Of a DNA stretch of 33,240 nucleotides, positions 27,186 through 30,775 are shown piece by piece. Made by a program: the position numbers and the translations under genes. The DNA is from Geminicoccaceae bacterium (lineage in GTDB: Bacteria > Pseudomonadota > Alphaproteobacteria > Geminicoccales > Geminicoccaceae). Location: assembly GCA_020446525.1 (NCBI GenBank), contig JAGREO010000039.1:1-33240 (forward strand). Direction: 5' to 3'. Numbering within the stretch: position 1 is the stretch's first letter; each line of letters opens with the position of its first letter. The notes below the pieces were generated by a model. That model saw only the letters and a list, made by a program, of their open reading frames with translations, did no database searches and was not told the DNA's origin.

Positions 27186-28166
27186 ATGACGACGCAGACC
27201 GACGAAGGCCGCCGGAACGAGGAGGGGCGCGGGCGGCGCGCCGAGACGCCGCGGGCGATCCCCAAACCCGGCTGGTACGACATCGCCCTTCGCACCAAAA
27301 ACGAAATGAGCGCCGACCATGTCTCGATGGTCTCGGCCGGCGTCGCCTTCTACGGCCTGCTCGCCCTGTTCCCGGCGATCGCCGCCCTGGTCTCGATCTG
27401 GGGTCTGGTGTTCGACCCGCAGGAGGTGGTCCGGCAGATCGACCAGTTGCGTGGCATCCTGCCCGAGGAGGCGGCGGCGATCGTCGAGGATCAGGCGACC
27501 AAGGTCGCCTCCGGCGCCGGCTCCGCGGTCTCGCTCGCGGCGATCGGCGGTCTGGCCCTGACCCTCTACAGCGCCGCCAAGGGCATGAAGGCGCTGATCG
27601 AGGGTTTGAACATGATCTATGACGAAGAGGAGAAGCGCGGCTTTTTCGCCCTCAACCTGACGGCGCTGCTGCTCACCCTGGGCATGCTGGTGGTGATGAT
27701 CGCGACCCTCGTCATGATCACCGTGGTGCCGGCGCTGCTGGGCCATCTGGGGCTGGGCCCGATGATCGAGACCCTGGTGACGTGGCTGCGCTGGCCGATC
27801 CTGTTCGTCGTCATGATCCTCGCCCTGGCGGTGCTCTACCGCTTCGCCCCGAGCCGGGCGAAGCCGCGCTGGCGCTGGGTGAGCCCGGGTGCGGTGATCG
27901 CCACGGTCCTGTGGGTCGCCGGATCGATGGCCTTTTCCTTCTACGTCCGCAGTTTCGGCAGCTACAACGAGACCTACGGCTCGATCGGCGCGGTCGTCAT
28001 CCTGCTGATGTGGTTCTGGCTGTCGGCCCTGATCGTGCTGATGGGCGCCGAGCTCAATTCCGAGATCGAGCACCAGACCGGACACGACACCACCACCGGT
28101 TCGCCCGAACCCATGGGCGAACGCGGCGCCCACGCCGCCGACACGCTCGGCGCCCGCCAGAACTGA
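27186..28166 (+). CDS. YihY/BrkB-family inner-membrane protein
   Basis: A 326-residue protein with about six membrane helices, of the YihY/BrkB (UPF0761) family. These were once annotated as RNase BN and are now regarded as membrane proteins of uncertain function. Marks are DHVSMVSAGVAFYGLLALFP, the LYSAAKGMKALIEGLNMIYD segment, LYRFAPSRAKPRWRWVSPGA, and FGSYNETYGSIGAVVILLMW with LIVLMGAELNSEIEH. The N-terminal 40 residues are charged and cytoplasmic. AGGAGAG lies before ATG 27186. A hairpin follows the stop codon after seven bases. Confidence 0.92.
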   Translation: MTTQTDEGRRNEEGRGRRAETPRAIPKPGWYDIALRTKNEMSADHVSMVSAGVAFYGLLALFPAIAALVSIWGLVFDPQEVVRQIDQLRGILPEEAAAIVEDQATKVASGAGSAVSLAAIGGLALTLYSAAKGMKALIEGLNMIYDEEEKRGFFALNLTALLLTLGMLVVMIATLVMITVVPALLGHLGLGPMIETLVTWLRWPILFVVMILALAVLYRFAPSRAKPRWRWVSPGAVIATVLWVAGSMAFSFYVRSFGSYNETYGSIGAVVILLMWFWLSALIVLMGAELNSEIEHQTGHDTTTGSPEPMGERGAHAADTLGARQN

Positions 28167-28173
28167 CCGTTCG

Positions 28174-28193
28174 CGACGGCCCCCCCGCCGTCG
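28174..28193 (+). terminator. hairpin after the YihY-type gene
   Basis: CGACGGC (28174-28180) pairs with GCCGTCG (28187-28193) around six C. It starts seven bases after the stop codon. There is no T-run, so it is a terminator-like structure only. Confidence 0.4.
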
Positions 28194-28279
28194 GACTCCT
28201 CCGTCGTGGGACTCCCGTGGACCGGGATCGGCAATCGGGGGCGGGGGCGCGGCCGCCGGTGAGCGACACGCGACGTGAT

Positions 28280-28303
28280 GGGGGCCGGATCGCTCCGGCC
28301 CCC
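28280..28303. terminator. hairpin between convergent genes
   Basis: GGGGGCCGG (28280-28288) pairs perfectly with CCGGCCCCC (28295-28303). It lies 32 bases beyond the stop of the minus-strand repeat protein and 114 bases beyond the YihY-type gene, so it may serve both. The downstream sequence is only moderately T-rich. Confidence 0.5.
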
Positions 28304-28335
28304 GTCCGCTCTCTTCAGCGCGTTTCGGTGATGGG

Positions 28336-28875
28336 TCAGCAGTCGGAGGCGCCGATCAGGCCGATCGCCGTGCAGCCGCCCTCGGTCGAGACCGACTGGC
28401 GGATGGTGGTGGTCTGGGTCAGGCTGCCGCCGACGTCGGCACCGTTGATCTTGCCGATCTCGGTGGCGCCGCCCTTGCCCAGGCCCAGGAACCCGCCGGA
28501 CTTGTGGCTGACGTCGGCCAGCACCGTGGTCGTCTGGCGCAACTGGCCGCCGACCTTGGTGTTCTTGATCGAGCCGACCTCGAGCGTGCCGCCCTCGTTG
28601 GTCAGGTTGCGGCGCACGAAGGTGGTCTGCACCGCCTGGCCGCCGACGTCGATGTTCTCGATGTTGCCGACATTGGTCGTCGACTTGGCACCGAGCCCGC
28701 CGAAACCGCCGCTCTCGACGCTGACATTGCCGTTGACCGTGGTGCGCTGGGTCAGCGTGCCGCCGACCTTGACCCCGCCCGAAGCCGCCTGGGCGTGGAC
28801 CTCGCCGGCGGCCATCAGCGCCAGGGCGGCGACCGAAGCGGTGGCGAAAGACTTGAAGCTGGTGACCTTGCGCAT
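28336..28875 (-). CDS. small secreted internal-repeat protein, function unknown
   Basis: A 179-residue protein with a clear signal peptide (MRKVTSFKSF, then hydrophobic ATASVAALALMAAG, cleavage near VHAQA). The rest is four repeats that alternate long and short. Each opens with VGG, a Q-x-T-T-x strand and a V/L-x-x-x strand, then either SGGFxGLG plus a spacer (repeats 1 and 3) or a bare EGG (repeats 2 and 4), and closes with the xVGxI turn. Examples are VGGTLTQRTTV, VGGQAVQTTFV, VGGQLRQTTTV and VGGSLTQTTTI. The pattern suggests a beta-solenoid or amyloid-like surface fibre, but no named family is recognised. Only the C-terminal repeat has cysteines (GGCTAIG, SDC). GAGGAG lies eight bases before ATG 28875. 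Confidence 0.8.
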   Translation of the reverse strand: MRKVTSFKSFATASVAALALMAAGEVHAQAASGGVKVGGTLTQRTTVNGNVSVESGGFGGLGAKSTTNVGNIENIDVGGQAVQTTFVRRNLTNEGGTLEVGSIKNTKVGGQLRQTTTVLADVSHKSGGFLGLGKGGATEIGKINGADVGGSLTQTTTIRQSVSTEGGCTAIGLIGASDC

Positions 28876-29188
28876 CTGACGTCTCCTCGTCGGGTTGTCG
28901 ATGAGCGGACCCTAACCGCGGATCGACCAACCGGAGGTGACACGCATCACCCGCTCCCCACTACCTGTGATCCACGACACAGGGCCGGTTCGTAGCGCAG
29001 CGGACGAATTTCGACCATCGCGACCCATGCCGGGTGGCCGTATGGATCGTTAATATTTCGAGAATTTTTGGCATATTTAAGTGTTCATTAACAACAACTC
29101 GTAGAGCAAAATAACTCGTTTCGATCGATACGCACGGTATCCCCGCCAGGCCTTTCGGCACTGTCGTGAATTCGTTCACCGGTCGAAG
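28876..29188. other. low-GC divergent control region
   Basis: No gene is supported in 313 bases. Bases 29040-29130 are markedly AT-rich for this genome (TTAATATTT, GGCATATTTAAG, CATTAACAACAACT) and probably carry the promoter of the three-gene unit at 29189, though no consensus -10 is placed well. CCTGTG (28964-28969) with CACAGG (28978-28983), and GTGAA-TTCG-TTCAC (29166-29179), form small hairpins; the latter sits just before the start codon. Confidence 0.4.
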
Positions 29189-30775
29189 ATGGAAATACAC
29201 ATGGACTGCATTTCGCAGGCGCGTCGGCGCAAGATCGGCCAGAAGCTCTATGTGGTCGCTTGGGTCATCGAAGGCATCGCGGTATCTGCGGGACTGCTGA
29301 TCGCCGTGGCGATCGGTATGGACGCCCATCATGCGGCCGGCGGCCATGGGCTCTCCTTGGACGTCGTTCTCGCCTCCGGCGGCTTTTTGGTCGTCGCCTG
29401 CGCCGAGCTGACCAAGATACCCGTGGCGACGACGCTGGTGCATGCTCGCTGGACGTGGAAGCCGGTGCTGTTCGTCCTTCTCGCCTTGATGAGCGTGATC
29501 ACCTTCGAGACCATTTTCTTCAGTCTCGAGCGCGGCTTCACCATGCGCATGCAGGCGGTCGAGCGACAGAGACAGGCCGTCGAAGAGCTGGAAGATGAAC
29601 GATCGAGACTCATGACGGATCTCGCCCGTTCCAAGGAGGCCGCCACGGATACGCAGGTGCTGCTCGTCGGCCCGGCGGACGAACTGCGCCGACGGACCGC
29701 CGAACGCGTCGAGGAATTGAAGGCCGAGCTCGCGACCCTGGATCTGAACGCCCTTCCTCCTGCGGCGCTCGATCTCGATCGACGCATCGCCGAACGCCGC
29801 CAGGCCATCGGCGATCTGCGCGATCTCGCGAAGACGGAACGCAACGAGCGCATCGACCGCTTCGAAAGCCAGCGCGAGAGCTACCTGCGTCGCATCGAGG
29901 ATGCGCGCAAGGCCGGGGACGAGCGGTCCGTGCGCAAATGGGAGCAAGCCCTGGAAAAGCTGCCCTATCCGAAAAAGGAGCTCGACGAGATCCAGAAGCG
30001 GCACGGCGTGGAAATCTCCAAGGTCGAGGCGCAGATCGTCGAGCTTCGTCAACAGCGCGCAGCGCTGGACATCACGCCATCGGCCGATCTCGTCGCACGC
30101 CGGCGGAGTCTGCAGGAAAGGATCGACGAAGCTTATGACGACCAGCGCGCGCTCGAGCGAGAGCAGGGAGCACGAGCCGCCGAGCGCAGCGAAAAGGCTG
30201 CCGCCCGTCTCGACGCGGTTGCCCTCACCGAAGAACGCCTGCGTGTGGTCGAGAAAAATCTGGTGCCCGCGCGCGCGGCCTACCTCGAACTGTCCGAGCT
30301 CGATCAGATTTATCGTATCGCCGCCTTCTGGTTCGGCAAAGCGCCGGCCGAGATCGGCTCGCACGAGGCCAAGCAGGTGGCGGCCTTCTGGTTCGGCTCG
30401 ATCGCGGCGCTCGCAGCTTTGGCCGGTGCCGCCACCGCCATTCTCGGTGAAGGGTTGATCCGTCTGAGCGAGCCGCGGCCGCGCCAGCGACGTGCCATGG
30501 GCCTGGCGGGCCTGCTCCGCCGCCTGCTGCTCTCCTGGCGCTGGCAGCGGGTGCGCACCGTCGAGCGCATCGTCGAAGGGCCGCCGGTCGAGAAGGTCGT
30601 GGAGAAGATCGTCGACAAGATCGTCGAACGACCGGTCAAGGAGTTCATCTACGTCCCGCTTCTCACCGACGATCCCGACGCCGTGCGCAGCATCCTCGAG
30701 CGCGATCTGCCTCGAGGTGTCGGCGAGATCCTGAAGCCATCCGCTTGGGGAGACGGCCATGCAGTGCCGGCATGA
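29189..30775 (+). CDS. large membrane coiled-coil protein, function unknown
   Basis: A 528-residue protein I do not recognise. The N-terminus has three membrane helices (about residues 20-43, 57-77 and 91-112). A long charged, heptad-like coiled coil follows (about 115-375), interrupted near PPAALDLDRR and LPYPKKELDE. A fourth helix lies near 403-428 (VAAFWFGSIAALAALAGAAT). After a basic stretch comes a valine/glutamate repeat (PVEKVVEKIVDKIVERPV), leading into KEFIYVPLLTDDPDAVRSIL. ATG 29189 is the first start; ATG 29201, with GGAAA before it, is equally possible. The next gene starts 17 bases inside its end, so the two are coupled. The layout suggests a membrane scaffold spanning a distance, but this is inference. 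Confidence 0.72.
   Translation: MEIHMDCISQARRRKIGQKLYVVAWVIEGIAVSAGLLIAVAIGMDAHHAAGGHGLSLDVVLASGGFLVVACAELTKIPVATTLVHARWTWKPVLFVLLALMSVITFETIFFSLERGFTMRMQAVERQRQAVEELEDERSRLMTDLARSKEAATDTQVLLVGPADELRRRTAERVEELKAELATLDLNALPPAALDLDRRIAERRQAIGDLRDLAKTERNERIDRFESQRESYLRRIEDARKAGDERSVRKWEQALEKLPYPKKELDEIQKRHGVEISKVEAQIVELRQQRAALDITPSADLVARRRSLQERIDEAYDDQRALEREQGARAAERSEKAAARLDAVALTEERLRVVEKNLVPARAAYLELSELDQIYRIAAFWFGKAPAEIGSHEAKQVAAFWFGSIAALAALAGAATAILGEGLIRLSEPRPRQRRAMGLAGLLRRLLLSWRWQRVRTVERIVEGPPVEKVVEKIVDKIVERPVKEFIYVPLLTDDPDAVRSILERDLPRGVGEILKPSAWGDGHAVPA

Follow-up and report, generated by a model that had tools for sequence, protein, structure and literature searches.

The question raised by this locus is what a short, apparently secreted protein built almost entirely of imperfect repeats might do, and by which route it would leave a cell in whose genome its gene stands alone. 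The window, i.e., the whole stretch of DNA that was analyzed, comprises 33,240 nucleotides and is contig C172 of a Geminicoccaceae genome (G000; 3.77 Mb in 379 contigs). The gene has an intact frame and AGGAG precedes its ATG. It is laid out as follows.

28336..28875, minus strand: repeat-protein gene, an open reading frame with an ATG start encoding 179 amino acids, proposed solenoid subunit
28786..28875, minus strand: signal peptide region, residues 1 to ~30, ending HAQA (by eye)
28648..28767, minus strand: repeat 1, residues 37-76, 40 amino acids, long, with SGGFGGLG
28555..28647, minus strand: repeat 2, residues 77-107, 31 amino acids, short
28435..28554, minus strand: repeat 3, residues 108-147, 40 amino acids, long, with SGGFLGLG
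28339..28434, minus strand: repeat 4, residues 148-179, 32 amino acids, short, with Cys168 and Cys179 in a recurrent tail

By eye, the N-terminus of the window protein is signal-like, and the N-termini of its relatives are similar. Four imperfect repeats fill residues 37-179, and their internal similarity is far above chance, the best off-diagonal score in self-alignment being 164 (lag 71) whereas none of 2000 shuffled versions of the mature sequence scored above 72. A preliminary description of this DNA had given the repeats as opening VGGxxxQxTT and closing VGxI. The count of four stands, while the exact opening is present in only three of them (repeat 2 deviates, with VGGQAVQTTF) and the closing is better written as [VI]GxI, the actual endings being VGNI, VGSI, IGKI, and IGLI. 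The insert SGGFxGLG was found exactly as described in repeats 1 and 3 and is absent from repeats 2 and 4. The two cysteines of repeat 4, which that description did not mention, form part of an ending, C-x2-[IL]-G-x2-G-x2-4-C, that closes the last repeat in 11 of the 11 sequences of one alignment of the family (A2). Members from G126 and G458 are without this ending, and those read end IGxIG[DE].

The best Pfam matches of the window protein (E 0.14 and 0.16) were far below the cut-off, NCBIfam gave no match, the best match among PDB sequences was insignificant (E 0.72), and a search of the PDB with the repeat profile A3 returned nothing. An outer-membrane β-barrel of the OMP_b-brl type (PF13505) was considered and rejected, with 12.6 bits for the window protein and at most 20.9 bits for ten relatives against a cut-off of 28.7. 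The repeat motif had been said to differ from that of curlin, and this proved correct: no match to the curlin repeat (PF07012) was listed for the window protein up to E 10, in a search in which HMMER filters drop most matches above E 0.1, and curli membership was rejected on this ground.

The protein nevertheless has relatives. A first scan of genome contigs with the window protein alone as query found nothing; a family profile from whose construction the window protein had been left out (rep14) matches it at E 2.3e-16. Within the order, the family was found in nine of 31 genomes (E 1e-4), all of them Geminicoccaceae and the window's own included. The first search for relatives was run at E 0.01, and the frames matched at L006 (G004), L007 (G027), and L008 (G017), which looked unrelated or wrong by eye, were dropped before counting. 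At greater distance, the repeat profile A3 (E 1e-5) flagged four of 385 genomes of the class (G126, G375, G000, and G013) and three of 398 genomes of the phylum (G725, G458, and G000), of which G458 belongs to another class; the family is patchy in the Pseudomonadota. The 13 repeat-positive genomes referred to below are the nine Geminicoccaceae plus G126, G375, G725, and G458, with G012 counted on a fragment at a contig start (L019; its other locus, L027, is doubtful) and G025 counted on L018, the N-terminal part of which does not look intact. Three queries found no family match in viral contigs, and the repeat protein of a relative found none in plasmids or phages. Two similar secreted-looking proteins with long tails rich in glycine, serine, and aspartate, L063 (G020:C191) and L065 from 624 (G012:C448), are encoded on the contigs that hold the divergent repeat genes of these two genomes.

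Repeat number differs among these relatives, a point that had been proposed as a check. Read by eye, it ranges from 2 to 6: two in Skermanella, G375, and two of the three G003 proteins; three in G008, G013, G126, G458, G005, and others; four in the window protein and twice in G020; and six in G001, a member of the same genus as the window. Within each relative read, also the one from the window's genus, the repeats are of near-equal length (about 35-38 residues, by eye), and the 40/31 alternation of long and short repeats was seen only in the window protein. Because the relatives that were read have repeats of equal length, the alternation looks derived in the window's lineage. It had earlier been taken to suggest an ancestral duplication of a two-repeat unit. 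This idea finds no support, both because of the equal repeats of the relatives and because repeats 2 and 4, the two short ones, have less in common than any other pair (39% protein identity, compared with 55% for repeats 3 and 4 and 52% for repeats 1 and 3).

Structure prediction, also suggested in the preliminary description, lends support to the supposed likeness to a β-solenoid. AlphaFold2, given an alignment of eight sequences, returned an all-strand model of the window protein with a mean pLDDT of 71.3, in which residues 1-33 and 57-61 are below 50. For a regular relative (L046), likewise with an eight-sequence alignment, the mean pLDDT was 84.9, with block means of 91-98 over residues 31-170, and the model shows a 36-residue periodicity, each period having one long strand and one or two short ones. 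From the secondary structure and the confidence values, we read the predicted strands as a β-solenoid with one repeat per coil. No weight is given to the handedness of the solenoid, because AlphaFold2 models of curlin are reported to be unreliable in this respect when alignments are sparse (PMC10192328).

The suggested resemblance to functional amyloids holds in rank but not in strength. The FapC fibril is the first Foldseek match of both models (E 0.045 for the window protein and 1.8e-3 for L046), and the CsgA fibril ranks first in VIA-align (Z 6.1 and rmsd 8.8 for the window protein; Z 7.5 and rmsd 8.3 for L046), where such Z values may reflect only a common arrangement and a missing family proves nothing. 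Neither model had a match among solved structures at E 0.001 or better, and the BFVD viral fold library gave none at E 0.001. The TTT/TxT ladders on the presumed β-helix, together with weak fold matches to several ice-binding proteins, could instead suggest an ice-binding or other ligand-binding β-helix unrelated to fibers. We give this reading hardly any credence: its scores are weak and common to many β-helices, the repeat family is linked to an exporter gene (see below), and one relative (G013) comes from HRbin40, which by its name is presumably from a hot-spring collection.

The neighborhoods of the relatives' genes point to a route of secretion. The Pfam model of CsgG (PF03783) was run across 35 genomes, i.e., the 13 repeat-positive ones and 22 Geminicoccaceae without the repeat family. 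Weak matches lie directly beside repeat genes in G008 and G725; the model also matches in eight of the 22 genomes without the family, and a CsgG-type gene as such is therefore unspecific. The two neighboring proteins, which we refer to as exporters, are 510 and 521 amino acids long and have DUF4384 and PG_binding-like domains, PG_binding_1 being below the cut-off in G725. With these two as tblastn queries, the same gene was found near repeat genes at L045, L049, L053, and L060, as well as at L054, L056, L057, L058, and L051. Eight of the 13 repeat-positive genomes have it linked to a repeat gene, and so does Skermanella stibiiresistens (L051). The exporters are about 508-540 amino acids in length; DUF4384 was present in all six that were tested and PG_binding_1 was above the cut-off in five of these.

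A second gene, ORF2, encodes a small secreted-looking protein and lies between the repeat gene and the exporter in seven of the eight linked genomes (not in G375). The full order of six-repeat protein, ORF2, and exporter is seen at L053, in the window's own genus. An ORF2 profile found 17 copies, eight of which had been used to build it, in 50 sequences (49 loci and the window), all of them in loci that hold the exporter. A gene for a DUF2807 protein (putative adhesin head) adjoins the exporter in G012 (L094 1172-1963, by Pfam), and DUF2807-like genes were noted by eye at L090 7150-9424 (G000) and L049 9328-10200 (G013).

A search of plasmids with the exporter returned two records, from Azospirillum lipoferum 4B and A. 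ramasamyi. Plasmid AZO_p4 of the former (L136 3927-7497; NC_016587.1) carries a two-repeat protein with a weak profile match (AZOLI_RS26745; E 0.0016), an ORF2-like gene (AZOLI_RS32780; E 0.006), and, two further genes after the latter, the exporter (AZOLI_RS26730; E 1.1e-114), all three annotated as hypothetical or DUF4384. In the 13-kb stretch from A. ramasamyi, neither repeat profile matched at E 0.01.

The similarity of the exporter to CsgG, as judged from profile comparisons, is weak. When the exporter profile was compared with all PDB sequences, the top five matches were CsgG, the best at E 6.9e-5 over profile positions 134-203 (~70 positions), and hhalign against four CsgGs gave E 3e-5 with a probability of 73% over CsgG columns 7-265 of 333. 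Among six exporters, PF03783 was over the cut-off in one (L057), below it in three, and absent in two. The NCBIfam model of HfaB (NF037935; cut-off 300 bits) scored 24.5 and 19.4 bits for two exporters, the best E being 1.3e-5, and did not match the exporter of L057. By a simple pattern, a lipobox-like motif occurs within the first 60 residues of seven of the eight exporters in the exporter profile (A9) and is missing in L057. We take the exporter to be a divergent member of the CsgG superfamily, not a strict CsgG or HfaB. CsgG-like pores are reported to be taxonomically broad, in a paper whose available text does not mention DUF4384 (PMC13397529).

Exporter and repeat family also occur together across genomes. 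At E 1e-10, A9 matched in 11 of the 13 repeat-positive genomes, with no match in G020 and G025, and in none of the 22 repeat-negative ones (Fisher p 1.9e-7); for the Geminicoccaceae alone, the counts are 7/9 and 0/22 (p 1.4e-5), and both p-values are optimistic because the genomes are related. Some secondary A9 matches in G003 and G375 cover nothing but the DUF4384 end. Proteins at L135 (8842-9975), L095, and L096 match the profile less well, and since those of L095 and L096 match only its DUF4384 end, DUF4384 has other contexts.

The window genome possesses, outside the window, an apparent curli locus (G000:C277; L091 8577-11977) with a CsgG gene, two genes for curlin-like proteins, one of which has a PF07012 match, and a further ORF that we take, from its motif, to be CsgF-like. 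The only PF03783 match and the only PF07012 match of this genome (E 0.001 in each case) are on C277, and the repeat gene of the window is not encoded beside csgG (PF03783, E 0.001). The window protein might therefore be imagined as a curli subunit that has diverged, with export through the ordinary CsgG encoded on C277, which has a curlin-repeat match beside it, the more so as CsgA is among its fold matches. This we judge very improbable, given that the protein itself has no curlin-repeat match, that genes of its family adjoin the DUF4384-type exporter in those eight of 13 genomes, and that nine of the 13 (all but G000, G005, G375, and G725) have no PF07012 match at all.

Searching for the exporter first (E 1e-40) identified it in eight of 385 class genomes and 19 of 398 phylum genomes, two of them in common, and added 19 genomes, none of which A3 (E 1e-5) had flagged. 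The four and three genomes that A3 did flag, apparently in the same samples, all possess the exporter; because it flagged just these, A3 misses most exporter genomes at class and phylum distance. Of the 19 added loci, 16 are evaluable, L123, L129, and L131 being cut by contig ends. An internally repeated ORF (z > 6) lies within 3500 bases upstream of the exporter in 12 of the 16 (L117-L122, L124-L127, L130, and L133), representing seven families, although these loci are partly related (four are of family f193 and three of f197); no upstream repeat protein was found within that distance at L116, L128, L132, and L134. The L117-L122 proteins resemble the window's family in hhalign (E 1.2e-5, probability 81%), and a profile of their type finds L056 (E 8.7e-13), L053 (E 4.2e-9), and L054 (E 1.9e-7). 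Neither repeat profile matched the proteins of L124-L127, L130, and L133 at E 0.01, and sequence comparison establishes ancestry shared with the window's family for only six of the 12 positive loci, i.e., L117-L122. The repeat protein of L133 ends CQSIGTVGSDC, as in the family.

The internal-repeat score is to be read with its background in mind. L117 has three ORFs with z > 6, of which two, encoded opposite the exporter on the other strand, are repeat proteins and the third (212 amino acids) is what we take to be a Sel1/TPR-looking protein; antisense readings account for some of the high-scoring ORFs of L118 and L133, and glycine runs in L126 and L127 may raise the score. Among control ORFs, 34 of 309 were above z 6 in a set that contained the repeat family itself. 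The 30 of these that were listed include 19 family members and three antisense readings of them, leaving at most 12 control ORFs outside the family, the glycine-rich L063 and L065 among them.

In the window genome, the exporter (511 amino acids; C349:15441-16973) has an open frame and is adjoined by ORF2, with no repeat gene beside them (next ORF upstream of ORF2, ~145 bases). As the subunit gene is on C172 and ORF2 and the exporter are on C349, the components would act in trans. G005 likewise has its repeat gene and exporters on different contigs. The repeat gene of the window is convergent with a BrkB-family gene (27186-28166), and a divergent gene (29189-30775) encodes a 528-amino-acid protein with no Pfam match, in which membrane and coiled-coil segments were noted by eye. 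Three noncoding features flank the repeat gene.

28280..28303, no strand assigned: G+C-rich inverted repeat between the convergent repeat and BrkB genes, possible terminator (read directly)
28937..28950, no strand assigned: palindrome GTGA-N6-TCAC upstream of the repeat gene
29166..29179, no strand assigned: second copy of the GTGA-N6-TCAC palindrome, immediately ahead of the divergent 29189 gene

The inverted repeat has no clear T run and is absent from the terminator-scan list, and a promoter scan of 28150-29250 found no sigma-70-like site. The palindrome, which we take to be CRP-type, occurs exactly twice in the window, both times in the 313-base interval between the repeat gene and its divergent neighbor upstream; two sites were reached in 5 of 100 shuffles. 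One or two such sites lie within 300 bases upstream of five of 17 repeat genes (the window's and four others) and none upstream of the remaining 12, against a background of 0.018 per 300 bases that was computed over overlapping loci, with two Skermanella genes being paralogs. The same-genus relative's repeat gene also has an upstream site. In the 49 loci searched, CHASE2-adenylate cyclase genes lie near the exporter at L116, L117, L134, and L135. At L051 and L058, and by tblastn also at L116, the exporter has nearby an MscS-type channel carrying a cyclic-nucleotide-binding domain. These are at most hints of cyclic-nucleotide control of the system.

The isolation of the window gene could also mean that this copy is a stray or decaying relic, its operon lost and its repeats irregular, which stands outside any export system. 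Besides the separation from exporter and ORF2, such decay would fit the lengths of its repeats, those of 2 and 4 being ~5 residues shorter and those of 1 and 3 ~4 residues longer than in the same-genus relative (by eye), and a model of lower confidence than the one for the regular relative. We consider this unlikely, as the intact frame, the signal-like N-terminus, the AGGAG before the ATG, and the Cys tail have all been retained, the same genome keeps the exporter frame open, the GTGA-N6-TCAC site recurs upstream of the same-genus relative's gene, and G005 shows a comparable separation.

The explanation that we favor, and hold to be probable, is that the window protein is a structural subunit of a curli-like, non-curli secretion system with a CsgG-superfamily pore of its own. 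At the level of sequence, it is founded on the repeats and their family, the domains of the exporter and its relation to CsgG, and the co-occurrence and linkage of the two genes. From this gene association, we infer that the DUF4384-type exporter would export the window protein, and we further infer that subunits probably polymerize, with ORF2 in an accessory role. The signal peptide would take the protein across the inner membrane, presumably by Sec, and export, probably in an unfolded state, would follow through the outer-membrane pore with its peptidoglycan-binding and DUF4384 domains. Outside the cell, each repeat of 31-40 residues would form one coil of a β-solenoid, and end-to-end stacking of subunits would probably produce a surface fiber, for which ORF2 would probably serve as nucleator, anchor, or chaperone. 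Against this explanation, two repeat-positive genomes (G020 and G025) gave no exporter match, four evaluable exporter loci have no repeat protein upstream, the similarity to CsgG is weak, the window's subunit gene is unlinked to the exporter in its own genome, and the Cys tail might close off the solenoid and so prevent stacking.

The latter point raises the main competing account, in which the same pore exports the protein but the product stays a single folded β-solenoid, an adhesin or coat, closed by its disulfide-capable tail. We regard this account as improbable, though deserving of serious attention. The Cys pair that ends the last repeat throughout A2 would suit such a closure, and the DUF2807 "putative adhesin" gene adjoining the exporter in G012 would suit an adhesin. 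β-Solenoids are described as common among non-fiber proteins, often as monomeric scaffolds (PMC10192328), and MafA, which has been compared with CsgG, secretes a non-fiber substrate (PMC7738311). A closed monomer sits less well with the G126 and G458 members that were read without the Cys tail, or with repeat numbers of 2 to 6, as in stacking subunits. Moreover, CsgG exports curlin, and HfaA, a curlin-like protein, requires HfaB for its placement at the outer membrane (PMC6707917).

If the favored explanation of a curli-like fiber system is right, it would bring a repeat family and a CsgG-type pore that are both new, and would add a surface-fiber system to bacteria whose genes now read "hypothetical" and "DUF4384," among them the cultured A. 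lipoferum 4B, in which it is open to direct testing. A broader proposal, the prospects of which we see as evenly balanced, is that a further class of functional-amyloid machinery exists beside curli and Fap, characterized by CsgG-family pores with peptidoglycan-binding and DUF4384 domains, a diverse family of solenoid subunits with repeats of ~35-38 residues, and a dedicated ORF2 partner, spread within the Pseudomonadota over several families and no fewer than two classes, and possibly under cyclic-nucleotide control. According to the available text of a survey of curli systems, the Pfam CsgG model, and even the survey's own curated one, catches many non-curli CsgG paralogs, and CsgG was concluded to be a member of a larger family (PMC3521004). 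The broader proposal, if true, would supply substrates for some of the paralogs set aside as non-specific in earlier curli surveys, and for one branch of them concrete candidates, both substrates and a partner gene, are put forward here.

In the available portions of the openly licensed literature, no description of this export system was found, and, judged by titles and abstract openings, none of the papers found on DUF4384 alone concerned export. Several known systems resemble it in part. In Ca. Kryptonia, a conserved gene cluster combines a CsgG-like transporter with a presumed secreted protein for which no curlin identity is claimed; the neighbors there differ, having subtilase and carboxypeptidase-regulatory-like domains, in a comparison made by description only (PMC4737851). 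The MafA lipoprotein complex of the Neisseria MafA/MafB system is likened to CsgG by its authors, whereas its substrate is a fratricide protein and not a fiber, again as compared by description only (PMC7738311). Fap was compared by fold alone: its FapC fibril is the first, albeit weak, Foldseek match, and FapC is reported to place one repeat in each cross-β layer (PMC12392863). The Fap pore, FapF, is a trimeric β-barrel (PMC12822426), in contrast to the CsgG-like exporter described here. The holdfast anchor of Caulobacter (HfaA/HfaB/HfaD) shares the combination of a CsgG-like outer-membrane protein with secreted subunits; the Hfa models (E 0.1) matched none of the five repeat proteins and the one ORF2 that were scanned. 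Curli (type VIII secretion, with CsgA/CsgB subunits and the CsgG pore) differs in that the repeat of the present family is 31-40 residues long, has another motif, and does not match PF07012, and in that the exporter carries PG_binding_1 and DUF4384 and is accompanied by an ORF2 of its own; in the window genome, a separate CsgG and curlin repeats are encoded on C277. What the two systems have in common are secreted subunits of imperfect repeats that presumably form a β-solenoid, variable repeat number, and a CsgG-related exporter, and the comparison with curli is strengthened because the gene for this exporter is linked to the repeat family.
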